From NCBI GenBank assembly GCA_947650285.1, contig CANTFL010000470.1, positions 124,001-188,000 on the forward strand: a stretch of 64,000 nt of DNA. The letters are read 5' to 3'. The position numbers were made by a program, and so were the translations under genes. The stretch's first letter is position 1. Each line of letters starts with the position of its first letter. The notes under the pieces were generated by a model. It had not been told where the DNA came from and searched no databases. It saw only the letters and a program-made list of their open reading frames with translations. Positions 17,565 through 61,462 of this stretch are shown here, one piece after another. Source of the DNA: Hyaloperonospora brassicae. Lineage: Eukaryota; Oomycota; Peronosporomycetes; Peronosporales; Peronosporaceae.

Positions 17565-17955
17565 TGTAACGGGGCAGCCCGTTACATGGAATTGTCACTT
17601 TGAGAAAAGTGACACTAAAGAATATGAAGTTGAATATTCTTTAAACAATATCACCGAAGTGGTGATATTGAAGGGTCGACCAAAGAGTCTGTTCATTGGT
17701 TGATATCTTGATGATATCAACCCACCAATCGCCTCAAGACGCGCGCAATGAGTGGTGACGAGACGTCACCATACACTCAGTTATATAAGTATAATTAAGT
17801 TAAGTCAAACAAAGAGACAGTAGTTAAAAGACTTAATTATATTAATATAACAGTTCTGCTTTTACCTTACCTACGCTTCCTCGCTTGCCTTGTGTACGTC
17901 TGTCGGGGCACCGATACCCTTGCGTTAGGTTCACGCAAGGGTGTGCCCCGTTACA
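17565..17955 (+). repeat. Element 1 5' LTR
   Basis: 391 bp, starting TGTAACGGGGCAGCCC and ending CCCCGTTACA. It contains nested hairpins, e.g. GTCACTTT/AAAGTGAC (17594-17601/17606-17613) and CAATATCACC/GGTGATATTG (17646-17655/17661-17670). Confidence 0.96.
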
Positions 17956-17957
17956 CT

Positions 17958-17965
17958 TGGTAGCA
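17958..17965 (+). promoter_or_regulatory. Probable primer-binding site (initiator tRNA-Met 3' end)
   Basis: TGGTAGCA begins two bases after the 5' LTR and is the complement of a tRNA ending UGCUACCA, as eukaryotic initiator tRNA-Met does. Element 3 has the same eight bases; element 2 has AGGTAGAA. The match is short, so the tRNA identity is inference. Confidence 0.55.
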
Positions 17966-17999
17966 CTTTGTAGTTCTTCCAAGGACCACAACATCCAAC

Positions 18000-19171
18000 A
18001 TGAACATGTTGGATGATGAATAGACCTTTCACGCCACGCGTGAAGGGTTTACCCATTTGAGTGACATCGAATGGGGTGCGGTAGAACGAATGAGTTCTAC
18101 CGTAGGCGAGTTCGCCATTTGCGCCATGTTGGAGTCTCTAGACATAGACCAACAACATGCCGCTATAGCCAAGTTCATCCAAAATGAACTTGTCGCCGAA
18201 CGGGAAAAAGTAGCCTTGCTTCACCAGCAAGGCTCTCAACAGGCCGAGCAGTTGAGAGAACTCGGTGCTCAACAGACAGAGCTTTTTAGACAGCAGCAAT
18301 TCCATGCTGCTGTTGGCGGGACGGCACATGCGCGTCGTCCCGAGGTCATGAAAGTTGACATCTCCAAGTACAGTGGAGTCCCGGAAGACTGCCTGTTACT
18401 ATGGTTTGTCGAACTCGACAGAGCCTTAAGGGCTCGTCGCGTCGAAGATGAGCAAATGAAACTTACATTTGCTCAATCCCACTTGACAGAGCGTGCCAAA
18501 ACTTGGTCCCTGGGGCTCGAGAGTAGCGACCCACATGTGTTTAGGTCGCTAGATGACTTCAAGTCCCGGCTCGGACAAACGTTTGAGCCGCCACGAGCTG
18601 AGTTCAGGGCTCGTTCTGAGCTCCTGAAACTCAAGCAGAGTAAGCGTGATGTGCACGCTTACGCACAACATACACGACTCCTAGCGAGTAGTACAACTGC
18701 TGACCCAGTCCATGAACACACGTTGATTACGGTGTTCATGCAAGGGCTCGCAGAAGGGCCCGTCAGGAGCCACCTGTTCCGCCTTGAGCTGAATACGCTG
18801 GAAGAAGCGAAACAGCCGCGGAACAGGAAGACTTTAGCATGAGACAGGCTCATGCTAGCTCAAACTCTTATCGTCCACCAAGACGACAAGAGATCGGAGG
18901 TCCAGAACCAATGGACCTCTGCTATGTTGAGAGCAAGAGACCTCGCTCTTCGGACAAAAAGCGATTGCAGAGGTGCAATCGCTGTCAGAAGTTAGGGCAC
19001 TACGCATACGAGTGTAGTGCTCCACGCCCAGTACCAAACAGTACTGAGCGAAATGGACGACCATTCGCCAAGAAGGGCAATGGTCGTGGGTCCAGCGCTA
19101 TTGCGCTTCGCAACAGCGAGACGGACCATCAAAAAATGGTCGGGCTCAGTAGGGGCGGAGCGCCCTACTGA
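18000..19171 (+). pseudogene. Gypsy gag, element 1, broken
   Basis: The start ATG at 18000 corresponds to the intact gag of element 3, but codon 8 is TAG (GAG in element 3). After this the frame runs to about 18805, where a one-base deletion shifts it. The rest continues in the next frame from about 18839 and carries the zinc knuckle CNRCQKLGHYAYEC. The central part is a retrotransposon gag domain (DISKYSGV..., LTERAKTWSLGLES) preceded by a Gln-rich coiled-coil-like segment. The Gag product would form the particle and bind RNA. Confidence 0.88.
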
Positions 19172-22100
19172 TCCAGCAACCTCAAGAGAATTTGCCAATC
19201 TCTTGACGAAAGTTGCTCCAGATACACAATCATTGTGTGTCTCTGCACCTGGTAATGACGTTTCGCTCATCACCTTGAAGCTGGAAGCGACACATGATTT
19301 GTCGCTTCGTGCCCTAGTAGACTGTGGGGCGTCGAACAACTTTGTTCGACGCCAGTCACTAGAGGGTCGTAGGCTCAAGTTAGTTGAGCGCGACATTTCC
19401 CTCACAAGGATGACGGTGCGCCTTGCCACAGGCGCATTGATTGCCGTTGCAAAACGTGTAGTAAGAATCCACTACATGTTGGAGGGCGAACAGTACGATG
19501 ATGACTTCATCGTACTGGATCTGGATGACAAATTTGATGTCATCCTGGGATTACCTTGGCTCAGAAAGTACGAGCCAAGGGTGAGCTGGCAGCATCGATC
19601 CGTGAAGATGCCTGCCGCTTGTTCATCAGATGGCAATCTGATGAATATCTTGGAGCGTCCACAAGCGTGTGGATGTGCTGCGAGTGAGTGCGATGGCCTC
19701 ACTTGCGGTACGGTCGTTAGCACGACTGCACAAGATCACAGTGTAGCTGATCACTACACTGTGGAGCAAGCTCCCGGCGGCTGTACAGAAGTACAGGCTG
19801 CGCCGAAGGTCCACCACTCGAATAAGTCGAGTGGACCGGGACATGGATGCATACCTAGCGGGCAGCATCTTAGACAGAAGAAACCTGTTGCCCCCAAAGG
19901 GCAACATGGAAATCCTAGGTCGACTGGAGAGTCGACCGTAGAGGATCGGGCCCTGACTGTGGTTGCACAGCCACAGTCAGAAGACGTCGAGGGAATAAGT
20001 CCCCACGTACTTGAGGAAGGATTTCCTCAAGAGTCACTTTCTGAGGGATCAGGCTCTCAGGAACCTGTGGAAAGAAGTTCCCAGGAAGTAACCGAGACGT
20101 TGAACGTCTTGGTTAATGACGGATCAAGCGTAGGCGCTTATACGCTTGATCTGATTGTGCCTCCGAAGTTAACTTCGGAGATAACTCAGTTGCCAACGCT
20201 AGAACCGAAACGGTTCTTGCGTGATCTGCGTAGTGGCAAAGTCAAGCAGATCTGCATACTCTTCACAGAGGATGAGTATGTGGCCGATATTCGGTCGGCA
20301 ACAGCATTTGCTGATAAAGAACGGGTTTTCAGCAGCTCATCGATAGACGAAAGTGTCCTCGATGAGAAGACTCGGATTGAGCGATACGCGTCCCAATCCT
20401 GGGAGTCACTTCAGGCAAATCCTTTGTACAAGGATTTGATCGAATTTAAGGACGTATTTCCTGAATTCGTACCTTTCGAGTTGCCTAAGGACAAAGGCAG
20501 TCGACACGAGATCGAGCTCAAACCGGGCTCGAAGTACTGTGCCATGAAGCAGTGGCCCCTGACTCGTGAACACGTACTAGAGATCGACAAGTTCTTTGCC
20601 GATCGCTTAGCAGCGAGCCATGTCAGGGAAATAACTTCTCCTTACACCCCTCCGACCTTCTGTGTGCGAAAGGCTACAGGAGGGTGGCGGATAGTGCACG
20701 CATTCAACAAATTGAATGCTGCAACGGTACCGGCTCAGACGCCGATACCGAGGAAGGACGTAATCATAGATGGTATGTCAAAGAGTACCATCTTTTCGTC
20801 CATGGATCTGATCTATGGGCTCTATCAGATCCTCATGCGTAAACGGGACATCCCGTTCACGGCAGTGAGTACCTTAGCGGGATGCTGTGGGAGTGGCTAG
20901 TTATGCCACAGGACCTGAGCAATGCCCCTGCAACATTCAACAGATGTGTCACAAATCTGTTGAGACCGGTGCGAGACTTCGCACCAAGTTACTTCGACGA
21001 TGTGTTCGTCCATAGCCGGGCTATGGACGGAAAGCCTGACGTTGAAGTTCACAGAACTCACGTTCGTCAGGTTCTTCAACTTATGCGCAAGCATAAGTTG
21101 TACGCATAACTCAAGAAGTGCATATTCGCGGATAGCGAAATACCACTTCTTGGGTGCATCGTGGGTAAACACGGCGTACGCCCTGATCCCGAAAAGATCA
21201 AGGCGATCACCGACTGGCCAGTGCCAGTCGATGTCAAGGGGCTAAGGAAGTTCCTTGGTCTAGCGGCGTACTTGCACAAGTACTCGCGCAACTACGCCGA
21301 TATGACTGTTCATCTTTCTTGCTTGCTCAAGAAAAATGTCAAGTGGTCATGGAACGCTGATTGACAGCGTTCCTTTGAGGGTATCAAGCAAAGCTTGATG
21401 CAATCGCCGATCTTGGCGATCGCAGATCAGGACAGACCATTTCATGTGGTCTGTGACGCCAGCGATATTGCAATCGGCTGTGCGTTTATGCAGTTCAATG
21501 CAGATGGTGCGGAGCGCGTCATCTATTATCAGTCGCGTCAGCTGCAAGCAGCTGAGCGTAATTACCTAGTGCATGACAAGGAACTCCTTGCCATGAAGTA
21601 CGCACTGGCTAAGTTTAGCGTCTATCTCCTGGGAGATAGACCGTTTGTTGTCTATACGAACCATGCGTCATTACGCACGGCCGTAAACAGCCCACACCTC
21701 TCACAAAGGATGGCGAGGTGGCTGTCTTTTTCTTCGCGGAGTATAACTTCTCCGTGGAGTATAAACCAGGACGACTCAATGTCGTCGCTGATGCGCTTTA
21801 GCGCCGGCCCGATTTCGAGCCGGACGCACAAATCAACAGTGAGGATAAGCTTACTGTTGCGAAACTGTCAGTCAGTGTCCCGTCGTCAAGTTTACTTGAC
21901 AAAGTACGAAAAGCATACGCAAAAGATAAGGATCTTCTGCGATTGTTGGATCATCTGGTGAATCCATCCAGTAAGTCCATGAAGGATTCACCAGCTTTGT
22001 ACCAATTATCATCGGATCGGTATAGTACACGCAATGGATTGCTGTACTATACAGCGGTTGCCGACGACACGCCTCGTGTCGTCGTACCCACTCATCATGA

Positions 22101-24045
22101 TTTGCGTTTACGCATCATGTATGAGTGTCACGATGCCCCAAAAGGCGGCCATCGTGGTAGAGAAAAGACTTACCTCGCGGTAAGTCGTGACTTTACTGGC
22201 CACGCCAGTATCAGTTTGTCCGCAAGTACATACGTGCTTGCGAGGTTTTGCAACGGATAAACCCAGTCTCTCATCCCGTGCGCCATTTCAGCCTCTGCCT
22301 GTTCCGACAGAGTGCTGACAATCCGTTTCAATGGACTTCGTCTTCGGTTTTCCCGAAGACTCTCACAACAATAATGGTATTCTTGTGTTCGTTGACCGAT
22401 TCAGCAAGATGGTCCATCTTGCTGCTGTCCCTGAGTCGATTAAGGCTTAAGGTTGTGCTCGTGTCTTTCTAGACACGGTCTTTAGACTCCACGAATTACC
22501 CCGTGAACTCGTATCCGACCGTGACCCTCGGTTCACGGCGGCATTTTGGCGAACCGTGTTCCGCACGTTGGAAACACGATTGAAGATGTCTAATTCTGGC
22601 CATCCCGAAACAGATGGTCAGACGGAACGTGCGAACCGTGTCCTCGAAGAGATCCTTCGAGGATATGTCCACTCGTTTCCGAGTTGGAGCGAATTTCTAC
22701 CCATGTTGGAATTCGCCATCAATAATTCGGTGCATGCTTCCAACCAGCACACACCGTTTTACGTGAATGGCCTACGCCATCCACGTGTGCCCACCCTTCT
22801 CGGTTGTGACTCTTGGATAAGAAGGGAGGGACTCGCTCGAGCAAAAACCATTTTGGCTCTTGCTCATCACGTGTCGACGCTAACGTCGTCACGTATGATG
22901 CCGATGTCGACAATGTCGACATCGATGAAGCACACCACCGCAATAATAGCGACAACGCTATTACTGACTCGGATGATGATGACGATGCTGATATATTCAG
23001 CATCGTCAACGATTATGCCAGCGAGGAAGAAGACAACCTCGCTGAAGAAGAGAACAATCTCTTAGCAGTGCGCACGAAGCACACTGAAAGACAAAACAAA
23101 GAGTCAGCAGAGAACTTCCTGCTGACTCGAGAGGCGGTAGTCCGTTTCGTTCAGGACTCCATCGCAAATGAGGTGGACCGCCAGAAACGGAACGCAGACA
23201 AGAATGGAAGAGCAAATGTTCTTTCACTTAAGATTTATGACCTAGTACTACTGTCTAAGGTAAACCTACCTGGACACGCAGTCACTATTGTCGGCAGTAG
23301 TAAACTAATGCCGAGGTACATTGGGCCATTTCGAGTGTTGCATCGCAAGGGCAATGCATACACACTCGAATTGCCACGTAAGATGCGCACGCATCCTACG
23401 TTTTTCGTGGGGAGGCTCAGGCCGTACTGTCAGTACGAGCCTTCTTCTTCCGGTGAAGATAGCCCCCACGTTCAAGAACATCCATCAAGTTCTTGCGTTC
23501 GCGCTCCAGACGATCCGTCTGGTCGCGCAGATATGATACCTCGGAGCTCAACCGAGATATCTCCCCGCGAGCTGTCGCCAGCTCGCCGAATAGGGAGCGG
23601 ACATCCCGCTCGACCTGAAGATGCGCCGTGGCATAATCGGCGCGATCCCTCGCCCAATCAGCCTCGTGATCCTTGCGGTTCTTCCGCGCGGTATCAGTCA
23701 AAGCGTATCGCCGGTCGCGCTCGTGTTTCAAGTCATCGCGCAATTCATCGATTGCACGATCCATCTCGTAAGGGTCGAGATGATGGGCCTGGGGCTCTGG
23801 AGGAGGTCTTTCCTCCTCCACCACATCCTTTGGTGGATGCTCACGGTGATCAACGCTTTCTAGTGGAGCGTATCTTGAATCACCGTGACGATTCAGGATC
23901 AAGGACGAGCTACCTCGTCCAGTGGAGGGGATATCCACCCTCTTGGAACAGCTAGGAGCCCCGCTCTCAGCTGTTGATGGATGTTGAAGGTCTCGTCCGC
24001 CAGTATGACGAGACCCATCCGATGAGTCCTCGAGCCAATCGGTAA
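19120..24045 (+). pseudogene. Gypsy pol (protease-RT-RNase H-integrase-chromodomain), element 1, broken
   Basis: Protease active site LVDCGASNNFV (about 19313-19345). RT from DVFPEFVPFELP to the catalytic YFDDVFVHS (about 20990), with a frameshift near 20890. Stops follow at 21107 and 21362, where element 3 has sense codons. RNase H HVVCDASDIAIG (about 21440). Integrase zinc block CHDAPKGGHRGR (about 22120) and core end GHPETDGQTERANRVLEE (about 22600). A further shift at about 22810 separates the core from the integrase C-terminal domain (VNDLVLL-type block, YVGRLRPY). The C-terminal chromodomain [13 protein letters not shown]...[14 protein letters not shown] is cut by TAG at 23953-23955 where element 3 has Trp, and would otherwise end at 24045. 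Confidence 0.93.
19131..19168 (+). promoter_or_regulatory. Candidate -1 frameshift signal between gag and pol, element 1
   Basis: The slippery heptamer A_AAA_AAT is at 19131-19137, followed after 11 nt by the hairpin GTAGGGGCG/CGCCCTAC (19149-19168). The pol frame (IKKWSGSVGAERPTD) is open across the site. The reading in gag frame is best seen in element 3, where gag is intact. Confidence 0.55.
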
Positions 24046-25020
24046 ACACGCGACCTAGGTGCTTGTAGACGGATTGCAAGTTTGCGATCGCGTCACGCAT
24101 CTCCTCCGAGATGTGTGCCCTTCCCCAGGTCGAACTTAGGGAATACACGTCCCTATGTGCACGCTGCGAGTTGTCGACACAACTCGCACAAGGGTCTCCC
24201 CATGTGAGGCAAGGAATGCCTGCCTTACTCGACAAACAGTGCAACCGGTACCTGGCACCGGTTGGCGTTCGCTTTTCGAACCTGAGGCGTGTCGCCTCAA
24301 GTTTCTTGAGCCACCCTTCTCGTCCAAAATTCTTTACGTTTTGGACGAACGCGTTCCACGCAGCCAAAAGCGAGGCTTTTTCGCGCTTTTGGTTGCTGTT
24401 GTACCATCGATGTCTAAGGAATACATCGAGATAAAAGTCTTCTTCAGCGCGAAAGTTGCTCGCGCTGGGAGTCAAGCCGTGAAGCTCAGTCGCATCGAAT
24501 AAGGGTATTCGATGGTGCTGGCTTGTCTCGTGAGACAAGCCATTGATGAGCCGTTCGGGCAAACGCCACGGCTTCAGCTCATCACGCTTCACGGTGGTAC
24601 CTTTGTTGGTACCACGGTTTCAGTATGACGATGGGTTGCACCATCGTCAAGTCGCTCGTGCGAAGGAGCACGAGCTGATTGCGGTGATGAGCAAACATAC
24701 TCATCACCAGATTCGTCATCACTGCCGAACAGACTGTGTTGCAACTCACGAGTCCGTTCGTTCGGCAGTGGCCTTGGCGGACACTGAGGCGTCGCCGGTG
24801 AGCGAGACGCCTCTGCAGCATTGCCCGAGTCAGACACGTCTGACTCGCCAGAGTAGATGACCTCAATATCGGGGTCATCATGCGCACGCGGTGCTCTACC
24901 GCGTGCACCTGCAGCACCTCTTGCTGTAGGCGAAGAACGAGCAGCAGACGACGAATCGCCTGCCGCAGAAGCTGGAACAGGCACAGACTCTGTGTGCCTT
25001 GAGTCACCCCGCATAGACAT
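23417..25020 (-). CDS. Antisense ORF of the gypsy element, element 1 copy (one frameshift)
   Basis: On the strand opposite to gag-pol, ATG at 25020 (MSMRGDSRH) opens a frame that, apart from a single missing base near 24620, stays open for about 534 codons to 23417. It has an acidic Ser/Pro/Ala-rich N-terminus, then [12 protein letters not shown] central block follows ([55 protein letters not shown] with four cysteines). The C-terminus is Glu/Arg/Leu-rich with heptad character ([19 protein letters not shown] ... [20 protein letters not shown]) and ends [10 protein letters not shown]. The central block is conserved with many amino-acid and silent differences in element 2, which argues for a real protein. 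The last third overlaps the pol C-terminus in antisense. Plant Tat-lineage gypsy elements (Ogre, Grande, Retand) carry antisense ORFs in the same region; I see no sequence relation. Function unknown; a structural or regulatory coiled-coil protein is one guess. Confidence 0.7.
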
Positions 25021-25151
25021 GTTAGCTATCCGAGGTCGAGCGGAAAGTGAATGGAACGGACCCAACAAGTGCTCCCTGTCCCAATGGTGACCAACGGGTG
25101 GCCGCCATTATTTTCGATAGTCACACGGTGACTATCAGTTATGGGGGGTGA

Positions 25152-25542
25152 TGTAACGGGGCAGCCCGTTACATGGAATTGTCACTTTGAGAAAAGTGAC
25201 ACTAAATAATATGAAGTTGAATATTCTTTAAACAATACCACCGAAGTGGTGATATTGAAGGGTCGACCAAAGAGTCTGTTCATTGGTTGATATCTTGATG
25301 ATATCAACCCACCAATCGCCGCAAGACGCGCGCAATGAGTGGTGACGAGACGTCACCATACACTCAGTTATATTAGCATAATTAAGTTAAGTCAAACAAA
25401 GAGACAGTAGTTAAAAGACTTAATTATATTAATATAACAGTTCTGCTTTTACCTTACCTACGCTTCCTCGCTTGCCTTGTGTACGTCTGTCGGGGCACCG
25501 ATACCCTTGCGTTAAGTTCACGCAAGGGTGTGCTTCGTTACA
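25152..25542 (+). repeat. Element 1 3' LTR
   Basis: 391 bp, about eight differences from the 5' LTR by hand count. Preceded by the purine tract ATGGGGGGTGA and followed by the TATAT target duplication. Confidence 0.96.
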
Positions 25543-38445: not shown

Positions 38446-38916
38446 TGTAACGGGGTGAGCCCGTTACATTAAAATTGGTACGAAAGTACCCATTTTTGGA
38501 TATTATCTATTTTGATAATATTCAATCAACATCACTCGAGAAAAGTGGTGTTGTTGGAATATTACCTCTAAGGGTAATATCCGTGGAGGGGTCTACTTCT
38601 TGGTTGATGCACACGGTACATCAACCAATTTAACCACCGATCGCTGCTGGACGAGCGCAATGGGTGGTGGACAGAAGACCCACATAGGAGACAGTGGTTT
38701 AATATAGTTAGTTTAAGACGAAAGATGCTTTAGCAAGAAACATAACTATATTACATACAGTTCTGCTTTTCCCTCAAGACAGAGCCTTCGGTTTCTGTAT
38801 TGTCTCGGTAGCGCTTCCTCACGCCACGTGTACGTGACGTCGGGCGTACGCACCCTTGCATTGTTATCAATACAAGGCCTTGCTCAGTTATCTGAGCAAG
38901 AGCGTTACCCGTTACA
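38446..38916 (+). repeat. Element 2 5' LTR (subfamily B)
   Basis: 471 bp, TGTAACGGGGTGAGCCCG to CCCGTTACA. Hairpins occupy positions similar to those of subfamily A but with different arms, e.g. ATATTACC/GGTAATAT (38559-38566/38573-38580). Confidence 0.95.
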
Positions 38917-38964
38917 CCAGGTAGAACTTTGTAGTCCTTTTAACGACCACCCATCTTATCCGTC

Positions 38965-39483
38965 ATGAACAGGAGGGATGAGGAAGAGAGCTTTCAAGCC
39001 ATACGTGAAGGTTTCGCCCATTTGAGTGAACTCGAATGGGCCGCGGTAGGGAGAATGAGCTCTACCGTGGGCGACATTGGCGTTACCGCTATGTTGGAAT
39101 CTCTTGACAGAGACCAACAACATGCCGCCATCGCCAGGTTCATTCAAAATGAACTTGGCGCGGAACGAGAAAAGGCAGCCTTGCTTCGCCATCAAGGCTC
39201 TCAACAGGCTGAGCAGTTGAGAGAACTCGGTGATCAACAGACAGAGCTGTTGAGACAGCAGCAACTTAATGCTGCTGTGGGCGGGACGACACACACGCGT
39301 GAACCCGAAATCTTAAAGATTGATATCTCCAAGTACAGAGGAGTCGAGGAAGACTCCATGTTATTATGGTTCGTCGAACTAGACAGATAAATAAAGGCCC
39401 GTCGCATCGACGATGAGCAAATGAAAATAACATTTGCTCAATCCCACTTGACAGGACTTGCTAAGACTTGGGCCTTAGGCCTG
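38965..39483 (+). pseudogene. Gypsy gag N-terminal half, element 2
   Basis: ATG at 38965 (MNRRDEEESFQAIREGF). The Gln-rich segment and DISKYRGVEED follow, then a TAA at about 39388 where element 4 has GAG. Gag-like sequence continues to ...KTWALGL and stops abruptly at the inversion junction (39483/39484). Confidence 0.88.
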
Positions 39484-41134
39484 GACGAAGTTAACTTCGG
39501 AGGAACAATCAGATCGAGTGTATAAGCGCCTACACTTGATCCGTCATTTACCACGACATTCAACGCCTCGGTTTCTTCCTGAGAACTTGCTTCCACAGGT
39601 TGCTGAGGGCCTGATCCCTCAGCAAGTGACTCTTGAGGAATTCCTCCCTCAAGCACATAGGGACTTATTCCCTCGACGTCTTCTGACTGTGTCTGTGCAA
39701 CCACAGTCAGGTCTCAATCCTCTACGGTCGGCTCTCCAGTCGACCTAGGATGACCGTGTTGCCCTTTGGAGGCAACACGTTTCTTACTTCTAGGAAGTTG
39801 CCCGCTAGTCGTACGCCCATGCCCCGATCCACTCGACTTATTCGAGTTGTGGACGTTCGGCGCTGCCTGTACATCTGTACAGCCGCCGGGATTTTGCTCC
39901 ACAGTGTAGTGATCAGCTACACTGAGGTCTTGTGCAGTCGTGCTAACGACCGTACCGCAAGTGAGGCCATCGTACTCACCCGCAGTACATCCGCACGCTT
40001 GTGGACGCTCAATGACGTTCATCAGATGGCCATCTGATGAACAAGCGGCAGTCATCTTCACGGATCGATGCTTCCAGCTCACCCTTGGATCGTACCTACT
40101 GCGACAAGGTAATCCTAGGATGAAATCAAATTTGTCATCCAGATCCAGTACGATAAAGTCATCATCGTACTGTTCGCCCTCTAACATGTAGTGGATTCTT
40201 ACTACACGTTTTGCAACGGCAATCAATGCGCCTGTGGCGAGGCGCACCTTCATCCTTGTGAGGGGGATGTCGCGCTCAACGAACTTGATCCCACGCTCCT
40301 CCAGTGGCTGGAGACGAATAAAATTATTCGACGCCCCACAGTCAACCAGAGCACGAAGTGACATACCTGTTGTCACTTCTAACTTCAAGGTGATGTGTGA
40401 TATCGCATCACCAAGTGCAGAGACACACAATGATTGTGTGTCTGCAGCGACTTTTGTCAAGAGATTTGCGAATTCTCTTGAGGTTGCTAGATCAGTAGGG
40501 CGCTCCGTTCCTACTGACCCCGACCATTTTTTGATCATTCGCTTCGCTGTTGAGGTTTCGTAACATCGTTGGACCTGCGCTCATTGCCCTTTCTGGCAAA
40601 TGGTCGTCCATTTCGCTCAGTACTGCTAGGTATCGGGCGTGAAGCACTACACTCGTATGCGTAGTGCTCTAATTTCTAACAGCGATTGCACCTCTGCAAT
40701 CGCTTGTTGTTCGAATAGCCAGTTCTCTCGCTCTCAACATCCCCGATGTCCATTGGTTCTGTACCTCCGGTATCTTGTAGTCTCAATGGAAAATAAGAGC
40801 TCGAGCTAGTATGAGCTTGTCTCATGCTAAAGTCTTCCTGTTCCGCTGCTGCGATATCATCTTCTAGAGTATTCAACTCTAGGCGGAACAGGTGATTCCT
40901 GACGGGTCCCTCTGAGAGCCCTTGCATGAACACAGTAATCAACGTGTTTTCATTTACCGGGTTCGCAGTTATACTATTCGCAAGGAGTCGTATGTGTTGA
41001 GCGTAAGCGTCAACATCACGCTTACCTTGTTTGAGTTTCAGGAGCTCAGATCGAGCCCTGAACTCAGCCCTTGGCGGTTCAAACGTTCGTTTGAGCCGGG
41101 TTTGAAGGATTCGAGCGAACCGAAAGCATACGGG
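39484..41134 (-). pseudogene. Inverted gag-protease segment of element 2
   Basis: Reads on the minus strand, from right to left: gag C-terminal half (ITVFMQGLSEGPVRNHLFRL, knuckle start LQRCNRC), the heptamer AAAAAAT (40532-40526), the protease (RALVDCGASNNFIRLQP, about 40400-40330) and the linker up to IVPPKLTS. On either side the element reads on the plus strand. Only a few bases were lost at the junctions. Confidence 0.9.
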
Positions 41135-44100
41135 TTCTTGCCAACGCTAGAACCGAAACTGTTTTTGCGTGATCTGCGTAGTGACAAGGCCAAGCAGATC
41201 TGCATACTCGTCACAGAGGATGAGTATGTGGCCTGTATTCGGTTGGCGATAGTATTTGCTGATAAAGAACGGGTTCTCAGCAGCTCATCGATAGACGAAA
41301 GTGTCCTCGATGAGAAGACTTGGATTGAGCGATACACGTCTCAATCCTGCGAGTCGCTTCAGTCAAATCCTTTGGATAAGGATTTGATCGAATTCAAGGA
41401 TGTATTCCCAGAATATGTACCTTGCGAGTAGCCTACGGAAAAAGTCAGTCGACACGAGATCGAGCTCAAACAGGGCTCGAAGTACTGTGTCATGAAGCAG
41501 TGGCCACTGCCTCGTGTACAAGTACTAGCGATCTACAAGTTCTTTACCGATCGCTTGGCAGCGGGCCATGTGAGGGAATCAACTTCTCTTTACACCTCTC
41601 CGACCCTCTGTGTGCGAAAGGCCACAGAAGGATGGCGGATAGTGCACGCATTCAACAAGTTGAGTGCGGCAGCGTACCGGCTCAGACGCCGATACCGAGG
41701 AAGGACGTAATCATAGATGGTATGTAAAAGCGTACCAGTTTCTCGTCCATGGATCTGATGGATGGGTTCTATCATATCCTCATGCGTGAACGGGACATCC
41801 CGTACACAGCAGTGAGCACCTTAGCGGTACGCTGTGGGATTGGCTAGTGATGCCACAGGGGCTAAGCAATGCCCCTGCTACTTTCAACAGATGTGTCACA
41901 AATCTTTTGAGACCGGTGCGAGACTTCGCACCGAGTTACTTCGACGATGTGTTCGTCCATAGCCGGGCTATGATCGGAAAGACAGACGTTGAAGCTCATA
42001 GAACACACGTTCGTTAGATCCTTTAACTTATGCGCAAGCATAAGTTGTACGCCAACTTCAGGAAAGGTATATTCGTGGCTAGCGAAATACCACTTCTTGG
42101 GTGCATCGTGGGTAAACACAGCGTACGTTCTGATACCGAAAAGATCAAGGCGATCACCGACTGGCCTGTGCCAGTCGATGTCAAGGGACTTCGTAAGTTT
42201 CTTGGGCTAGCAGCGTACTTGCACAAGTACTCGCGCAACTACACCGAGATGACTGTTCATCTTTCTTGTTTACTCAAGAAAAATGTGAAGTGGTCATGGA
42301 ACAATGACTGCCAGCGTTCCTTTGAGGGTATCAAGCAAAGCTTGATGCAATCGCCCATAATGGCGATTGCAGATCAGGACAGACCATTCCATGTGGTCTG
42401 TGACGCCACCGATTTCGCGATCGGCTGCACGTTGGTGCAATTTGACACAGACGGCGCAGAACGCGTCATCTGATATCAATCGCGTCAGCTGCAAGCAGCT
42501 GAGAGTAATATCCCAGTCCATGACAAAGAGCTCCTTTCCATGATGTATACATTGGCCAAGTTTTGTGTATGTGCATATCTCTTAGGAGATAGACCGTTCA
42601 TCGTCTATACGGACCATGCGTCACTACTTACGGCCGTAAACAGTCCACAACTCTCACAACGAATGGCGAGGTAGCTGTCTTTCTTCGCGGAGTACAACTT
42701 CTCCGTTGAGTATAAACCAGGACGACTAAACGTCGTCGCTGATGCGCTCTCGCGCCGACCCGATTTCGAGTCGGGCGCGCAATCCAACAGTTGAAACAAG
42801 CCCACTGTTGCGACACTTTCAGTCAGTGTCCCGTCGTCAACATCACTTGACAACGTGAGGAAGGCATACGCAAAAGACAAGGACCTTCTGCGCTCGATGG
42901 ATCATCTGGCAAATTTATCTCGTGAATATCTAAAAGATTGACCGGCTTTATACATATCCTCTTCGGATCGGTACACAACACGCCACGGGTTGCTGTACTA
43001 TACGGCCGTTGCCGGGGACACGCCTCGTCTCGCCGTCTCCGATCATTACAGTTTTCGCTTGAGCATATTGTATGAGTGTCACGATGCCCCAACAGGCGGC
43101 CATCGTGGTAGAGAAAAGACTTACCTTACGGTAAGTCGTGACTTTTACTGGCCACGCCAGTATCAGTTTGTCCGCAAGTACATACGTGCTTGCGAGGTTT
43201 TGCAACGGATGAAACCCAGTCTCTCATCCCGTGCGCCATTGCAGCATCTGCCTGTTCCGACAGAGTGCTGGCAGTCCGTTTCAATGGACTTCGTCTTCGG
43301 GTTACCCGAAGAAGCTCACAAGAATAATGGTATTCTTGTGTTCGTTGACCGATTCAGCAAGATGGTCCATCTTGCTGCTGTCCCTGAGCCGATCACGGCA
43401 CAAGGCTGTGCTCGTGCCTTTATCGAAACGATGTTTCGACTTCACGGGTTTCCCCGTGAACTCGTATCCGACCGTGGCCTTCGGTTCACGGCAGACTTTT
43501 GGCAATACGTGTTCCTTTCAATCGTAACACGGCTAAAGATGTCGACATCTGATCTTCCCGAAATACATGGTCAGACGGAACGTGCCAATCGTGTCCTCGA
43601 AGAGATCCTTCGAGAACATGTCCACTCGTTTCCGAGTTGGAGTGAATTCCTACCGATACTGGAATTCGCCATCAATAATTCAGTGCATGCCTCGACACAG
43701 CACACACCGATTTACGTGAATGGCTTACGCCATCCACGTGTGCCCGCCCTTTTAGAGTGTGAATCTTGGATAAGAAGGGAGGGAATCGTTCGAGCAAAAA
43801 TCGTTATGGCTCTTGCTCATCACGTGCCGACGCAAACGTCTTCACGTATGATGCCCATGTCGATCAAGTCGACATCGATGAAGAAGACAAGCTCAATAAT
43901 AGCGATGATGCTATTATTGACTCGGATGATGATGACGATGCTGGTATATTCAGCATCGCCGACGACTATTCCAGCGAGAATGAAGACATCCTCGCCGATG
44001 AACAGAAAGAGGAAAGGACCATTTATACAGTTCGCACAAGGCAAACTGAACAAAACAATGCCGAGTCAGCAGAAGGATTTCTGCTGGCTCGTGAAGCAGC

Positions 44101-45006
44101 GATCCGTTTCGTACAGGATTCCATCGCTTACTCAGTGAGCCGTCAGATACGGAACGCTGACGAGAATGGAAGAGCAAATGTACATTCATCTGTCGAAGGC
44201 GACTTAGTCCTACTATCTACGGTAAACCTACCTCGACACGTAGTGACCAATTTGGGCAGCAGTAAACAACTGCCCAAGTACATCAGTCCCTTTCGTGTGC
44301 CAAGCCGACAAGGAAACACATACACGATCGAACTGCAACGTAGGATGCGCAATCACCCTACGTTTTACGTGGGACGTCTCCGCCCGTACTGTCAGTACGA
44401 GCCCTCTTCCGATGATGAAGATACCTCCACGTTCAAGAACCTCCACCAGGCTCTTGCTTTCGTGCTCCAGACGATCCGTCTGGATGCGTAATGAAGAGAT
44501 CTATCCGTTCAAGCGAGAGATTTCCATGCGTGCCGTTCCCAGCTCCGCAACGAGGGAGTGGACATTGCGCTCAACCTGCAGTTGCGCGACCGCGTACTCA
44601 GCACGGTCCTTCGCACGCTCGGTCTCGCGATCCGTGCGGTCCTGTCGCACAGTGCTGGTCAGAGCGCAACGCCCGTCCCTCTCGTGCTCTAAATCCTCGT
44701 GAAATTCAACAATTGCGCGATGCATCTTGTGCGGGTTGAGATAGTGAGCAGAACGACCTGGAGGAGAATTTTCCTCCTCCTCCACATCCTATGATTGAAT
44801 CCCACGGGCGTCAACGCTTCCTTGTGGAGATTATCGTGAGCCACCGTGACGATTCAGGATCAAGGACGAGTTACCTCGTCCAGTGGCGGGGGTATCCACC
44901 CTCTTGGAACAGCTGGGAGTCCTGATCCCAGATGATGTTGAATGTGCCCGGTCTCGTCGAGCAGTACGACGAGACACGCTCTTTGATGGAGGGCCATCGT
45001 CGCATG
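41135..45006 (+). pseudogene. Gypsy RT-RNase H-integrase-chromodomain, element 2, broken
   Basis: Order: linker (LPTLEPKLFLRDLRS), RT start DVFPEYVPCE then TAG at 41429, a TAA at 41725, catalytic SYFDDVFVHS (about 41940), RNase H FHVVCDATDFAIG (about 42390), integrase CHDAPTGGHRGREKT (about 43080) and HGQTERANRVLEE (about 43565). The usual shift at about 43766 precedes the C-terminal domain, and the chromodomain FLVEIIVSHRDD...[17 protein letters not shown] (44820-45000) has a TGA. Most RT/RNase H stops are shared with element 3. Confidence 0.9.
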
Positions 45007-46146
45007 AACGCCCGGCGCGTTTGTAAAGGGATTGCAGATTCTCAATCCTTTGACGCATCTAGGACGAGGTGCGAGCCATCTAGTAGGTTTGATTAGGGAG
45101 GTACTCTTCCCTAATGGCGCGAACTGAGCTGTCAACACAACTCAGACAGTTCTCTTCCCACGAGAGGCAAAGTAAACCTGCGTCTCGAGACAATCGGTTC
45201 AATTTGTACCGAGCACCGTTATGCGACTTCAGCTCAAACCTGTTGCGAGCAACATCAAGTTTGTCCAGCCAAACCTTGCGACCAACATTCTCAATGTTGA
45301 CGATGAACGAATTCTACGCCTGCACCAAAGAGAGCTCGTCTCTCTTGCGGTTGCCGTAGTACCATCGATGTCTAAAGAAGACATCGATGTAGAATTCATG
45401 CTCAGTGCGATAATTTATCGCACTGGGGTCAAGTCCATGGATCTTTGATGAGTCAAAGAGTGGGATCCGACAACTCGCAGTGGTTTACCCATAACACTGT
45501 CTCAGCTCGCTCACGGAAGGCAACCATGGCTTTTTCTCAGGAGCAGATCGCAACGCGTTGCAATCCTGTTCCTCCTGCGTGGTCCCGACATGCGAGCTGG
45601 CACCAAGATCGCCACAATACCTCGCATTACTGCGGATATGGCTACGATGACTCCGCGAAGATTCATCGACATCGTCATGAGGACGTGCGTCCTCATGTTG
45701 CACACTAGAATCGTATGAATACGAGCGCGATCGGTTCGATCCCGGTGACGAGTTTCCGGAATCGTCGGATGAACCGAACATCTCATGCCGCGATTCAGGA
45801 TCAAGACTGCTGCGAGGCGAGCAGTCTTCGTTTTCGCAACCGTACGGTCGGGCTGTGCGGACGACTTGGAGTCGGAAGGGGGATCCGACTCGCCCGAAAA
45901 GAGCACCTATATCTCGTTTTCTAGGTCCATGGGACTACTACCCGCAGCATTGGCTGCGGGTGAAGAAGCTGCACGTGGATGGCCACATGCACCTGCAACT
46001 ATGGGTGTTGCAGACTGCTTGTTAGCAGCATCAGGCGCATTATCGCCTGCTGCCGACTCTTGAGTGTCTTTCCCTCCGGCTGCACGGATGCGTGCAGCCG
46101 CTTCGGACGCAGCCTTGATTGCGGAGTGCATGTACCGACTCGTCAT
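44228..46146 (-). pseudogene. Antisense ORF, element 2 (subfamily B) copy, broken
   Basis: Starts MTSRYMHSAIKAAS at 46146, with the N-terminal acidic landmark SGESD (about 45895) also seen in subfamily A. The central block reads EFYIDVFFRHRWYYGN, GARYKLNRLSRDAGLLCLSW and ENCLSCVD (about 45380-45150), matching subfamily A at protein level despite many DNA differences. The coiled coil AIVEFHEDLEHERDGR...AQLQVERNVHSLVAELGTAR follows and the C-terminus differs (GIFIIGRGLVLT). Several stops and shifts. Confidence 0.7.
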
Positions 46147-46278
46147 GCGCTGTAAAGTTGAAATGAGAAGGAAAAGACCAACAAGTGATCCCGTCCCCAG
46201 AGCGACACGACGGGTGATATCTCTGTCATTAACGAATCAATCATTCACTATAGTGACTGATGGTTATGGGAGAGGTGA

Positions 46279-46750
46279 TGTAAGGGGGTGATCCCGCTAC
46301 ATTAAAATTGGTACGAAAGTACCCATTTTTGAATATTATCTATTTTGATAATACTCAATCAACATCACTCGAGTAAAGTGGTGTTGTTGGAATATTACCT
46401 CTAAGGGTAATATCCGTGGAGGGGTCTACTTCTTGGTTGATGCACATGGTACATCAACCAATTTAACCACCGATCGCTGCTGGACGAGCGCAATGGGTGG
46501 TGGACAGAAGACCCACATAGGAGACAGTGATTTAATATAAGTTAGTTTAAGACGAAAGATGCTTTAGCAAGAAACATAACTATATCACATACAGTTCTGC
46601 TTTTCCCTCAAGACAGAGCCTTCGGTTTCTATATTGTCTCGGTAGCGCTTCCTCACGCCACGTGTACGTGACGTCGGGCGTACGCACCCTTGCATTGTTA
46701 TCAATACAAGGCCTTGATCAGTTATCTGAGCAAGAGCGTGCCCCGTTACA
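46279..46750 (+). repeat. Element 2 3' LTR (subfamily B)
   Basis: 472 bp, about a dozen differences from the 5' LTR; its terminal inverted repeat is mutated (TGTAAGGGGGTGATCCCGC). Preceded by the purine tract GGGAGAGGTGA. Confidence 0.93.
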
Positions 46751-53474: not shown

Positions 53475-53865
53475 TGTAACGGGGCAGCCCGTTACATGGT
53501 ATTGTCACTTTAAAGAAAGTGACAATAAAGAATATGAAGTTGAATATTCTTTGAACAATATCACCAAAGTGGTGATATTGAAGGGTCGGCCAAAGAGTCT
53601 GTTCATTGGTTGATATCTTGATGATATCAACCCACCAATCGCCGCAAGACGCGCGCAATGAGTGATGACGAGACGTCACCATACACTCAGTTATATTATC
53701 ATAATTAAGTTAAGTCAAACAGAGAGACAGTAGTTAAAAGACTTAATTATATTAATATAACAGTTCTACTTTTACCTTACCTACGCTTCCTCGATTGCCT
53801 TGTGTACGTCTGTCGGGGCACCGATACCCTTGCGTTAAGTTCACGCAAGGGTGTGCCCCGTTACA
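53475..53865 (+). repeat. Element 3 5' LTR
   Basis: 391 bp, same structure as the element 1 LTR; followed by CC and TGGTAGCA, the same candidate primer-binding site. Confidence 0.96.
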
Positions 53866-53909
53866 CCTGGTAGCACTTTGTAGTCCTTCCAAGGACCACA
53901 GCATCTAAC

Positions 53910-55064
53910 ATGAATATGTTGGATGATGAAGAGACCTTTCACGCCACGCGTGAAGGGTTTAACCATTTAAGTGACATCGAATTGGGTGCGGTAGAACGAA
54001 TGAGTTCTACCATAGGCGAGTTCGCCATTAGCGCCATGTTGGAGTCTCTGGACAGAGACCAACAACATGCCGCTATAGCCAAGTTCATTCAACATGAACT
54101 TGTCGGCGAAAGGGAGAAAGTAGCCTTGCTTCACCAGCAAGGCTCTCAACAGGCCGAGCAGTTGAGAGAACTCGGTGCTCAACAGACAGAGCTGTTGAGA
54201 CAGCAGCAATACCATGCTGCTGTGGGCAGGACGGCACATGTGCGCCGTCCCGAGGTCATGGAAGTTGACATCTCCAAGTACAGTGGAGTCCCGGAAGGCT
54301 GCCTGTTACTATGGTTTGTCGAACTCGACAGACCCTTAAGGGCTCGTCGCGTCGAAGATGAGCAAATGAAACTCACATTTGCTCAATCCCACTTGACAGA
54401 GCGTGCCAAAACTTGGTCCCTGGGGCTCGAGAGTAGTGACCCAAATGTGTTTAGGTCGCAAGATGACTTCAAGTCCCGGCTCAAACGAACGTTTGACCCG
54501 CCAAGGGCTGAGTTCAGGGCTCGTTCGGAGCTCCTTAAACTCAAGCAGGGTAAGAGTGATGTGCACGCTTACGCTCAACACATACGACTCCTTGCGAATA
54601 GTATAACTGCGAACCCAGTCTATGAACACACGTTGATTACGGTATTCATGCAAGGGCTCGCAGAAGGGCCCGTCAGGAGCCACCTGTTCCGCCTTGATCT
54701 GAATACGCTGGAAGATGCGATATCAGCCGCGGAACAGGAAGACTTTAGCATGAGACAGGCTCATACTAGCTCAAACTCTTACCGTCCACCAAGACGACAA
54801 GAGATCGGAGGTCCAGAACCTATGGACCTCTGCTATGTTGAGAGCGAGAGACCTCGCTCTTCAAACAACAAGCGATTGCAGAGGTGCAATCGCTGTCAGA
54901 AGTTAGGGCACTACGCATACGAGTGTAGTGCTTCACGCCCAGTACCAAACAGTACTGAGCGAAATGGACGACCATTTGCCAGAAAGGGCAATGGGCGTGG
55001 GTCCAGCGCTGTTGCGAAGCCGCAACAGCGAGACGGACCATCAAAAAATGGTCGGGGTAAGTAG
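53910..55064 (+). CDS. Gypsy Gag polyprotein, intact, element 3
   Basis: 384 residues without interruption, starting MNMLDDEETFHATREGF 44 bases after the LTR. Helical, Gln-rich region (QQGSQQAEQLRELGAQQTEL, about residues 70-90), retrotransposon gag domain (VDISKYSGVPEGCLLLWF to about residue 265), a basic/proline-rich linker, a CCHC zinc knuckle CNRCQKLGHYAYEC (about residues 328-341), and a short tail ending NGRGK. Gag would assemble the particle and bind element RNA. It is the only complete gag in the window although pol of the same element has many stops. The slippery heptamer lies 15-21 bases before its stop. Confidence 0.93.
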   Translation: MNMLDDEETFHATREGFNHLSDIELGAVERMSSTIGEFAISAMLESLDRDQQHAAIAKFIQHELVGEREKVALLHQQGSQQAEQLRELGAQQTELLRQQQYHAAVGRTAHVRRPEVMEVDISKYSGVPEGCLLLWFVELDRPLRARRVEDEQMKLTFAQSHLTERAKTWSLGLESSDPNVFRSQDDFKSRLKRTFDPPRAEFRARSELLKLKQGKSDVHAYAQHIRLLANSITANPVYEHTLITVFMQGLAEGPVRSHLFRLDLNTLEDAISAAEQEDFSMRQAHTSSNSYRPPRRQEIGGPEPMDLCYVESERPRSSNNKRLQRCNRCQKLGHYAYECSASRPVPNSTERNGRPFARKGNGRGSSAVAKPQQRDGPSKNGRGK

Positions 55065-58000
55065 GGGCGGAGCGCCCTACTGATCTAGCAACCTCAAGAG
55101 AATTCGCAAATCTCTTGACAAAAGTCGCTGCAGACACACAATCATTGTGTGTCTCTGCACTTGGTGATGACGTTTCGCTCATCTCCTTGAAGTTGGAAGC
55201 GACAAATGATTTGTCGCTTCGTGCCCTAGTAGACTGTGGGGCGTCGAGCAACTTTGTTCGACGCCAGTCACTAGAGGGTCGTAGGCTTAAGTTCGTTGAG
55301 CGCGACATTCCCCTCACAAGGATGACGGTGCGCCTTGCCACAGGCGCATTGATTGCCGTTGCAAAACGTGTAGTAAGAATCCACTACACGTTGGAGGGCG
55401 AACAGTACGATGATGACTTCATCGTACTGGATCTGGATGACAAATTTGATGTCATCCTGGGATTACCTTGGCTCAGAAAGCACGATCCAAGGGTGAGCTG
55501 GAAGCATCGATCCGTGAAGATGACTGCCGCTTGTTCATCAGATGGCCATCTGATGAACATCTTGGAGCGTCCACAAGCATGCGGATGTACTGCGAGTGAG
55601 TACGATGGCCTCACTTGCGGTACGGTCGTTAGCACGACTGCGCAAGACCTCAGTGTAGCTGATCACTACACTGTGGAGCAAGCTCCCGGCGGCTGTACAG
55701 ATGTACAGGCAGCGCCGAAGGTCCACCACTCGAATAAGTCGAGTGGATCGGGACATGGGCGTACGCCTAGCGGGCAACTTCCTAGGAGTCAGAAACATGT
55801 TGCCTCCAAAGGGCAACACGGTCATCCTAGGTCGACTGGAGAGCCGACCGTAGAGGATTGAGACCTGAATGTGGTTGCACAGACATAGTCAGAAGACGTC
55901 GAGGGAATAAGTCCCTATGTGCTTGAGGAAGGAATTCCTCAAGAGTCTCATGCTGAGGGATAAGGCCCTCAGCAACCTGTGACAACAAGTTTCCAGGAAG
56001 AAACCGAGACGTTGAACGTCGTGGTAAATGACGGATCAAGTGTAGGCGCTTATACACTTGATCTGATTGTGCCTCCGAAGTTAACTTCGGAGATAACTCA
56101 ATTGCCAACGCAAGAACCGAAACTATTTTTGCTCGATCTGCGTAGTGGCAAGGTCAAGCAGATCTGCATACTCGTCACAGAGGATGAGTATGTGGCCGAT
56201 ATTCGGTTGGCGACAGTATTTGCTGAGAACGAACGGGTTCTCAGCAGCTCATCGATGGACAAAAGTGTCCTCGATGAGAAGACTCGGATTGAGCGATACA
56301 CGTCTCAATCCTGAGAGTCGCTTCAGTCAAATCCTTTGGATAAGGATTTGATCGAATTCAAGGATGTATTCCCAGAATATGTACCTTGCGAGTAGCCTAC
56401 GGAAAAAGTCAGTCGACACGAGATCGAGCTCAAACAGGGCTCGAAGTACTGTGTCATGAAGCAGTGGCCACTGCCTCGTGTACAAGTACTAGCGATCTAC
56501 AAGTTCTTTGCCGATCGCTTGGCAGCGGGCCATGTGAGAGAATCAACTTCTCCTTACACCTCTCCGACCCTCTGTGTGCGAAAGGCCACAGAAGGATGGC
56601 GGATAGTGCACGCATTCAACAAGTTGAGTGCGGCAGCGTACCGGCTCAGACGCCGATACCGAGGAAGGACGTAATCATAGATGGTATGTAAAAGCGTACC
56701 AGCTTCTCTTCCATGGATCTGATGGATGGGTTCTATCATATCCTCATGCGTGAACGGGACATCCCGTACACAGCAGTGAGCACCTTAGCGGTACGCTGTG
56801 GGATTGGCTAGTGATGCCACAGGGGCTGAGCAATGCCCCTGCTACTTTCAACAGATGTGTCACAAATCTGTTGAGACCGTTGCGAGACTTCGCACCGAGT
56901 TACTTCGACGATGTGTTCGTCCATAGCCGGGCTATGATCGGAAAGACGGACGTTGAAGCTCATAGAACACACGTTCGTTAGATCCTTTAACTTATGCGCA
57001 AGCATAAGTTGTACGCCAACTTCAAGAAGTGTATATTCGCGGCTAGCGAAATACCACTTCTTGGGTGCATCGTGGGTAAACACGGCGTACGTTCTGATCC
57101 CGAAAAGATCAAAGCGATCACCGACTGGCCTGTGCCAGTCGATGTCAAGGGACTTCGTAAGTTTCTTGGGCTAGCGGCGTACTTGAACAAGAACTCGCGC
57201 AACTACACCGAGATGACTGTTCATCTTTCTTGTTTACTCAAGAAAAATGTGAAGTGGTCATGGAACAATGACTGCCAGCGTTCCTTTGAGGGTATCAAGC
57301 AAAGCTTGATGCAATCGCCGATCTTGGCGATTGCAGATCAGGACAGACCATTCCATGTGGTCTGTGACGCCACCGATTTCGCGATCGGCTGCACGTTGGT
57401 GCAATTTGACACAGACGACGCAGAACGCGTCATCTGCTATCAATCGCGTCAGCTGCAAGCAGCTGAGAGTAATATCCCAGTCCATGACAAAGAGCTCCTT
57501 TCCATGATGTATACATTGGCCAAGTTTTGTGTATGTGCATATCTCTTAGGAGATAGACCGTTCATCGTCTATACGGACCATGCGTCACTACTTACGGCCG
57601 TAAACAGTCCACACCTCTCACAACGAATGGCGAGGTAGCTGTCTTTCTTCGCGGAGTACAACTTCTCCGTTGAGTATAAACCAGGACGACTAAACGTCGT
57701 CGCTGATGCGCTCTCGCGCCGGCCCGATTTCGAGCCGGAAGCACAATTCAACAGTGAGAATAAGCCCACTGTTGCGACACTTTCAGTCAGTGTCCCGTCG
57801 TCAACATCACTTGACAACGTGAGGAAGGCATACGCAAAAGACAAGGACCTTCTGCGCTCGATGGATCATCTGGCAAATTTATCTCGTGAATATCTAAAAG
57901 ATTGACCGGCTTTATACATATCCTCTTCGGATCGGTACACAACACGCCACGGGTTGCTGTACTATACGACCGTTGCCGGGGACACGCCTCGTCTCGTCGT

Positions 58001-60940: not shown

Positions 60941-61071
60941 ATTAACTATGCGAGATCAATCGGAAAGTGAATGGAACGGACCCGACAAGTGCTCCCTGTC
61001 CCAATGGTGGCCAACGGGTAGCCGCCATATTTTCGATAGTCACACAATGACTATCAGTCAAGGGTGGGTGA

Positions 61072-61462
61072 TGTAACGGGGCAGCCCGTTACATGGTATT
61101 GTCACTTTAATGAAAGTGACAATAAAGAATATTAAGTTGAATATTCTTTGAACAATATCACCAAAGTGGTGATAGTGAAGGGTCAACCAAAGGGTCTGCT
61201 CATTGGTTGATATCTTGATGATATCAACCCACCAATCGCCGCAAGACGCGCGCAATGAGTGGTGACGAGACGTCACCATACACTCAGTTATATTATCATA
61301 ATTAAGTTAAGTCAAACAAAGAGACAGTAGTTAAAAGACTTAATTATATTAATATAACAGTTCTGCTTTCACCTTACCTACGCATCCTCGATTGCCTTGT
61401 GTAAGTCTGTTGGGGCACCGATACCCTTGCGTTAAGTTCACGCAAGGGTGTGCTCCGTTACA
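61072..61462 (+). repeat. Element 3 3' LTR
   Basis: 391 bp; preceded by purine-rich AAGGGTGGGTGA and followed by the TCTTG duplication. Confidence 0.96.

Follow-up and report, generated by a model that had tools for sequence, protein, structure and literature searches.

Densely spaced short perfect hairpins in a lineage of gypsy retrotransposons of Hyaloperonospora brassicae

Dense structure over the whole coding genome is known from RNA viruses as genome-scale ordered RNA structure (GORS), and at imperfect inverted repeats (quasipalindromes) template switching can perfect the repeats or invert their loops. Quasipalindrome template switching has been studied in Escherichia coli (PMC7202029), and for viroids folding has been argued to be an escape from silencing (PMC3185485). 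Among oomycetes, the Chronos elements are Ty3/Gypsy retrotransposons with a chromodomain (PMC5348765), and in Phytophthora infestans most transposon-matched small RNAs, of 21 and 25/26 nt, derive from long terminal repeat (LTR) retrotransposons (PMC3522703). Here we analyzed 64,000 nucleotides of the oomycete Hyaloperonospora brassicae (positions 124,001 to 188,000 of contig C258, CANTFL010000470.1, in the 100.56-Mb, 898-contig assembly GCA_947650285.1; hereafter the window), in which four gypsy retrotransposons are densely set with short perfect inverted repeats able to form hairpins. The original prediction, made from the letters of the window, knew of no earlier description of this pattern for gypsy elements; in agreement, no description of tiled hairpins in retrotransposons was found among the open-licence papers listed, as judged by title and start of abstract.

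Like GORS genomes, the elements have a folding energy below that of shuffled sequences, and element 1 carries hairpins in all its parts, but they differ in that the stems are overwhelmingly Watson-Crick, local and of a clade-typical length, that both strands are alike and that the carrier is an LTR retrotransposon. The tolerance of G-U pairs on a sense RNA that marks GORS was not seen here, G-U being not clearly above A-C and the strands being alike. Viroids and targets resistant to the RNA-induced silencing complex offer a second likeness, as their self-folding is argued to protect RNA from silencing (PMC3185485); viroids are, however, non-coding, whereas the small separate hairpins here lie within coding RNA, for which protection is a conjecture. 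Quasipalindrome mutation, finally, is known as local hot spots, whereas here every young copy has tens of hairpins per few kb, and recent events are few. No known kind that we could name fits all the tested features.

Hairpin density in the window and in the genome

The four elements lie on the forward strand at 17565..25542 (element 1, clade A), 38446..46750 (element 2), 53475..61462 (element 3, 91% like element 1) and 62630..64000 (element 4, truncated by the window end); hairpins run throughout the first three and are present in the fourth. Perfect inverted repeats with a loop of 3-15 nt were counted per 2-kb interval and compared with ten dinucleotide shuffles of each interval. The eleven intervals wholly or almost wholly within elements (18001-26000, 40001-46000 and 54001-62000) held 11-26 hairpins each with an arm of at least 8 bp, summing to 178 against 3.1 for the shuffle means; at an arm of at least 7 bp the sums were 250 and 14.3. 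Sixteen element-free intervals had 0-3 each (arm at least 8 bp) and five mixed ones were intermediate, so that counts remain near the shuffled level outside the four elements and rise steeply within each. Shuffle means ranged from 0.0 to 1.0 per interval, close to the one hairpin per 5 kb that had been estimated for chance. Non-gypsy stretches were pooled for these counts; the claim that the neighbouring sequences are flat therefore holds for pooled non-gypsy DNA (0-3 per 2 kb), the copia element and the long interspersed nuclear element (LINE) being counted with the rest.

All eight hairpins originally reported in 19284..19645 (+) proved to be exact reverse complements (8/8), each where it had been placed. 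As had been claimed, hairpins occur in the LTR, gag, pol and 3' region of element 1 alike, at 17.9, 10.2, 8.7 and 13.4 per kb respectively (arm at least 8 bp). Element 1 has itself decayed in part: its middle holds 9.8 hairpins per kb, where young copies have about 14. The description 'tiled end to end' is right in that hairpins are dense throughout and too strong as to coverage: in the young copy L002, hairpins with an arm of at least 7 bp cover about 41% of the sequence, and the median distance from one to the next is about 20 nt. The observation of tiled hairpins is thus confirmed as real and strong.

High hairpin density was likewise found in 57 distinct copies on many contigs (L001-L060, where L042, L045 and L050 are the same copies as L005, L025 and L003 and were counted once). 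A DNA search with the reverse transcriptase (RT) stretch gave 2162 first-look candidates, of which the 40 that were scored all match at 87-100%. An RNase H family search yielded 3630 first-look candidates, which can belong to any gypsy family, and 37 of the 150 scored lie in open frames of 1339 amino acids. No DNA-level relatives were found in viral contigs, nor in the bacterial and archaeal genomes searched.

Nineteen RT stretches (L061-L079), a hand-picked spread of the RVT_1 list, were used as controls. Six are close relatives (90-99% amino acid identity) with 7.7-13.7 hairpins per kb with an arm of at least 8 bp. Four form clade B (L061 plus L067, L069 and L078, the latter three one family), at 53-59% identity and 2.0-6.2 such hairpins per kb, and clade C consists of five copies of one family (L062, L070, L076, L077 and L079; 54-56% identity) with 0.3-0.5 per kb. 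Nearly empty at arm 8, clade C nevertheless has 59-96 arms of 5 bp against 22-29 expected, a 2.6- to 3.3-fold excess; these hairpins, mostly with loops of 3-6 nt and in places one per 15-25 nt, are missed by a scan at arm 8. The remaining four stretches are distant, comprising the gypsy families L064 and L065 (27-28% identity) and L063 and L066, which have RVT_1, in which no integrase was found and which we take for LINEs. None of these four showed a hairpin excess, save that 5-bp arms were mildly overrepresented in L066 (35 against 22.5). The hairpin habit is thus common to three clades, and each has a characteristic stem length, 8-10 bp in A, 7-9 bp in B and 4-6 bp in C.

Geometry, pairing and turnover of the stems

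At arms of 8, 9, 10 and 11 bp, L002 had 21, 17, 17 and 4 hairpins compared to 0.8, 0.1, 0.0 and 0.0 expected, while L061 had 18, 10 and 0 at 8, 9 and 10 bp and L062 had 96 at 5 bp (29 expected) and 20 at 6 bp (7 expected). These peaks end sharply, and past them the counts drop about as chance extension predicts. Loops are most often 3-10 nt long; those of 0-2 nt exceed expectation as well, in part through chance extension. The G+C content of the arms is 0.69 in L061 and 0.59 in L067, compared to 0.53 between hairpins, which is what selection for stability would give. The loops of L002, L055 and L061 are somewhat A-rich on the coding strand (0.31-0.32 compared to 0.24-0.25).

Codon-preserving shuffles (40 each, in one pol frame), which keep the protein and the codon use, reduced the 56 hairpins of L002 pol with an arm of at least 8 bp to 1.4 +/- 1.1 (maximum 4), bearing out the excess that had been predicted over such shuffles. 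At the same arm length L055 had 44 against 0.8, L061 25 against 1.3 and L067 9 against 0.8, and the 5-bp arms of L062 numbered 96 against 35.5 +/- 5.2; four control stretches stayed within about 2.3 standard deviations of their own shuffles. As these shuffles erase the excess, the hairpins are made through silent codon choice, and it is by this route that the coding of the proteins is kept. In clade A, pairing of third with third codon positions is rarer than in shuffles (7/53, p 0.014, the baseline of 0.28 being taken from shuffled hairpins with an arm of at least 6 bp, since longer ones are too rare), as it is in a relative, L055 (6/41, p 0.018). No phase bias of this kind is seen in clades B and C. 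Third-with-third pairing leaves the least silent freedom, and its rarity therefore suits stepwise change in both arms.

Mismatches within stems do not favour G-U. Stems with one mismatch in the four window elements had G-U and A-C counts of 12/20, 10/22, 11/10 and 3/4. By clade, where copies are near-identical and the counts not independent, 8-bp stems with one mismatch numbered 60 G-U and 63 A-C in clade A (3.2 and 2.0 in shuffles) and 14 and 23 in clade B (5.0 and 4.5), and among the 5-bp stems of clade C 401 were fully Watson-Crick against 57 expected, 99 had one G-U against 91 and 69 one A-C against 84. Across 30 distinct young copies of clade A, the mismatches that 80% or more of them share comprised 5 G-U, 6 A-C and 2 others, alongside 31 perfect stems. 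For the pair just beyond the arm, A-C exceeds G-U in clade B (16 to 6; 40 to 13), and elsewhere the proportions are near those of shuffles.

The dense folding that had been suggested is predicted on both strands: RNAfold z-scores in 150-nt windows were -5.6 (+) and -5.8 (-) for L002, and -0.23 to +0.25 for three non-gypsy parts of the window. In partial copies the plus-strand means were -5.6 and -5.5 for L002 and L055, -1.9 for L061, -0.7 for L067 and -2.4 and -1.3 for L062 and L077, with similar values on both strands. The 25-mer folding energies were -4.4, -4.1, -4.0 and -3.4 kcal/mol for L002, L061, L062 and L067, and -2.5 to -3.1 kcal/mol for shuffles of the first three. Over window sizes, the energy profile of clade A has no special size at 21-25 nt, its excess per base rising to about 60 nt; that of clade C levels off at about 20-40 nt. 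A small-RNA-sized optimum was rejected on the clade A profile, and the shared 25-mer energy level is therefore suggestive only. Folding of the sense RNA alone would favour G-U over A-C, so that the near absence of such a preference speaks against it; from the Watson-Crick stems and the likeness of the strands, the cause seems to act on a property common to both.

Hairpin density declines with age, from about 14 per kb in the young copies to as low as 6 in older ones. On a tree of 60 distinct copies (of 66, L037, L057 and L075 were left out as short matches or duplicates and the three repeated copies were counted once), with a hairpin map that is dominated by one subfamily and hence leans toward pair loss, 547 single changes on terminal branches break pairs and 44 restore them, against 107 breaks and 44 restorations on internal branches; 13 two-sided changes on terminal branches keep Watson-Crick pairing and 10 do not. 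Copies thus shed their hairpins as they age: nothing visible maintains these in the chromosome, and their upkeep, with its cause, is confined to the active lineage. Hairpin places differ between clades. Of the 479 stem pairs of L002 that can be aligned with L061, 13 also pair there; the figures are 5 of 412 for L002 in L062 and 44 of 172 for L061 in L067. Places thus turn over while density stays, which argues that no single pol hairpin matters. Between L061 and L067, silent third positions differ less often in stems (50/113, stems of either copy included) than between hairpins (312/553); a separate comparison of paired and unpaired rates is biased, as it took for stems those that are perfect in the reference copy.

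The LTRs are particularly informative. The 27 LTRs examined in clade A fall into two subfamilies, of about 391 and 471 bp (mean identity 61% between and 97% and 89% within). Six hairpin places are common to both, and each is occupied in 13-14 copies out of 14 in one subfamily and 5-10 out of 13 in the other. The stems at two of the six appear rewritten by eye. Pairwise comparisons at four places gave two-sided changes at three, which are not the two just named; these comparisons took perfect hairpins only, so that their one-sided count is zero by construction and without weight. In LTRs it is the hairpin that persists, not its sequence.

Traces of strand switching were sought in substitution clusters. 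Among 205 clusters, 6 match a nearby reverse complement, two of these being exact in-place inversions, compared to 2 reversed, 0 complement and 0 direct matches; under a looser rule the 403 clusters gave 26, 10, 5 and 6, respectively, and in LTRs 3/20 match the reverse complement. Even without copying some of this surplus should arise, since a decayed arm set against an intact one will match the partner of that arm. Exact in-place micro-inversions of 6-7 nt were observed at or near hairpins in L024, L048 and L029 of the clade A alignment, that of L024 being a loop inversion, and at column 162 of the LTR alignment the loops ACG and CGT are reverse complements of each other. Loop inversions were seen at 3/61 hairpins, two with loops of 2-3 nt, and 65 loops with multiple changes included 2 reverse-complement, 2 complement and 1 reversed case, a count that missed the ACG/CGT pair. 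Frequent loop inversion as the motor of the process was rejected on these numbers (3/61 hairpins; 2/65 multi-change loops).

Anatomy of the elements and described relatives

The LTRs of element 1 (17565..17955 and 25152..25542, both +) are 98% identical and contain 7 and 5 hairpins with arms of 8-10 bp, respectively. The first begins with TGTAACGGGG (17565-17574) and ends with CCCCGTTACA (17946-17955), a 10-bp terminal inverted repeat. Between the LTRs, Pfam matches on the forward strand mark gag (18057..18842; PF03732 Retrotrans_gag, with 8 hairpins of arm at least 8 bp), the protease and start of pol (19017..20900; PF08284 RVP_2), which contain the eight originally reported hairpins, the RNase H part of pol (21395..21961; PF17917 and PF17919) and the 3' end of pol with an SH3-like domain and a chromodomain (22813..23955; PF24626 and PF00385). 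LTRs of the form TG...CA together with gag, protease and RNase H place the element among Ty3/Gypsy, and PF00385 at the end of pol among the chromodomain-bearing gypsy elements. The related families L061 and L062 have RVP_2, RVT_1, RT_RNaseH, H2C2 and rve in that order. The segment 17958..17974 (+), which we take to be the primer binding site, falls in a gap without hairpins of arm at least 7 bp (17943-17991). The purine-rich stretch 25137..25151 (+) before the 3' LTR, presumably the polypurine tract, adjoins a hairpin at 25116-25136.

Element 2 has LTRs of 471 and 472 bp and inner parts 84-87% like those of element 1. Between its LTRs, an inner segment of 1.6 kb (39486..41107, -; 87-91% identity in BLAST on the minus strand) is flipped with respect to elements 1 and 3, and to element 4 as far as this reaches. 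Elsewhere, five tandem LTRs 23 bases apart stand beside an element at G000:C93:228276-230324, and outside the gypsy elements of the window a dispersed repeat of 240 bp occurs at 12993-13222 and 25888-26126 (84% identical).

An antisense open reading frame (ORF) of 391 amino acids (23417..24592, -) overlaps the end of pol and has 88 database relatives, many of those from Peronospora matthiolae being 36-44% identical to it across 97-99% of its length. Three relatives in Hyaloperonospora arabidopsidis carry the name 'RxLR effector candidate protein'; such names may be misannotations of transposon antisense ORFs. Plant Retand elements similarly possess an antisense ORF between pol and the 3' LTR but belong to a plant, non-chromovirus lineage (PMC11963269), and neither 'hairpin' nor 'inverted repeats' occurs in the text of the Retand paper covered by a term search (PMC11963269). 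Chronos elements resemble those described here as oomycete gypsy elements with a chromodomain after the integrase (PMC5348765). Chronos is defined by a plant-like (archaeal-type) RNase H and by its position in the RT tree; the RNase H match here is to RT_RNaseH (PF17917). A term search of the main text of the Chronos paper gave no 'hairpin', 'inverted' or 'palindrom' (PMC5348765).

Explanations and significance

The best overall explanation, to which we assign a probability of about 0.35, is a selected two-strand hairpin trait of one gypsy lineage that acts as a silencing shield. Taken apart, selection for two-strand hairpins, whatever the agent, is slightly favoured, and the shield in particular, which we infer rather than observe, is doubtful. 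Selection during the retrotransposition cycle would keep the hairpins in one gypsy lineage, the selected property being that short stretches of either strand would fold on themselves by perfect Watson-Crick pairs. Sense and antisense RNA of the element may coexist, because an antisense ORF is present and has relatives in other genera. If both RNAs, and the small RNAs derived from them, folded on themselves, duplexes would form less readily and targeting would suffer; silencing that depends on base pairing would then be blunted, and the family could spread to many copies. In favour of a shield we count the prominence of LTR retrotransposons among the transposon sources of small RNAs in P. infestans (PMC3522703) and the escape from silencing by folding that has been argued for viroids (PMC3185485). 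In a wider and tentative form, the elements might carry a second genome-wide code over the protein code, self-complementary on either strand, with stems inherited by family, that blunts silencing and allows spread; that the stem lengths (about 5, 7-9 or 8-10 bp) would be family-inherited parts of such a code is equally tentative.

We lean to selection for two-strand self-pairing as accounting for the use of silent codons, the Watson-Crick symmetry, the loss and turnover of hairpins and the GC-rich arms of L061. Several observations weigh against it. It does not account for stems that stop at 5 bp in one clade and at about 10 bp in another; 5-bp hairpins are weak, the family L067 is only weakly structured (z of -0.7 and -0.6), and known stable tetraloops were not enriched in the loops on inspection. 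Silent third positions differ between two young clade A copies at 9/247 in stems and 28/637 elsewhere, and in clade C at 10/240 and 14/599, slightly more often in stems, where first and second positions vary more as well; stems being hardly better conserved, recent purifying selection on them is not visible. For the antisense ORF, the third-position excess between elements 1 and 3 is weak and the frame is broken in element 3.

A mutational drive, in which RT or mismatch correction on folded complementary DNA (cDNA) perfects near-palindromes by snap-back, is a possible though rather unlikely alternative. Protein selection would remove harmful events, leaving a pile-up at silent sites, and the RT of each clade would set the stem length. 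The Watson-Crick, strand-symmetric stems, their sharp clade-specific lengths and the lack of a visible preference for stable loops all suit such a process, which the loss in chromosomal copies would confine to the element's own cycle. That strand switching happens is shown by the three exact micro-inversions and the ACG/CGT loops, and reverse-complement clusters lead in each count (6 of 205; 26 of 403; 3/20 in LTRs), as do two-sided changes that keep pairing on terminal branches (13 to 10). However, the 371 pairs followed in 30 young copies showed 3 two-sided Watson-Crick changes, as opposed to 92 private and 17 shared one-sided ones, and the GC-rich arms of L061 also count against a drive. 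The originally proposed RT that writes reverse complements finds some support in the traces of strand switching (6/205) and runs counter to the scarcity of two-sided changes (3); the codon phase of clade A (7/53, p 0.014), which fits gradual change in both arms, is unlike one-step copying and compatible with stepwise correction.

Selection on the folding of single-stranded cDNA, or of DNA at another stage, e.g. for protection or against misannealing, is unlikely. DNA hairpins accept neither G-T nor A-C, in line with the strand-symmetric Watson-Crick pattern, and the stretches of element 1 that probably serve as primer binding site and polypurine tract are hairpin-free, perhaps by chance; yet the A-rich coding-strand loops in L002, L055 and L061 hint at the sense strand, and DNA hairpins of 5 bp are scarcely stable.

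Those same loops, together with the very negative fold z-scores and the one-mismatch stems of clade C, with 99 G-U over 69 A-C, would instead fit a genome-wide fold of the sense transcript such as structured RNA viruses have, serving packaging, compaction or stability. This we consider improbable, since the G-U count of clade C is close to the 91 obtained from shuffles and G-U is not above A-C in clades A and B, the minus strand is equally structured, and the clade C excess per base is flat past about 20-40 nt. Of the densely folded RNA genome that had first been proposed, the high predicted structure of the RNA remains, against which stand the likeness of the strands and the scant use of G-U; if sense-RNA folding were true after all, the phenomenon would fall under GORS.

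Chance or composition, and likewise an artefact of coding or assembly, can be practically dismissed, as dinucleotide and codon shuffles do not reproduce the excess and hairpin density is high in 57 distinct copies on many contigs, with controls near flat. Chance or composition was rejected by the dinucleotide shuffles and near-flat controls, codon or protein bias by the codon-preserving shuffles, and a host-wide process by the flat non-gypsy DNA, the near-flat LINE-like and distant gypsy stretches and the loss in old copies.

Whether selected or driven by mutation, the hairpins bias codon use, small-RNA mapping and substitution models of these elements. If driven by RT, they would show that template switching can remodel a whole genome and yet spare its proteins, which would matter for models of retroelement and retrovirus evolution. 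Clades of differing stem length beside hairpin-free gypsy families in one genome form a ready-made comparison. If the hairpins are selected, they would be a protein-free, sequence-level defence or structural code acting on both strands, in which the success of a transposon would be tied to its self-complementarity, and the way in which silencing reads its targets could be tested on them directly.

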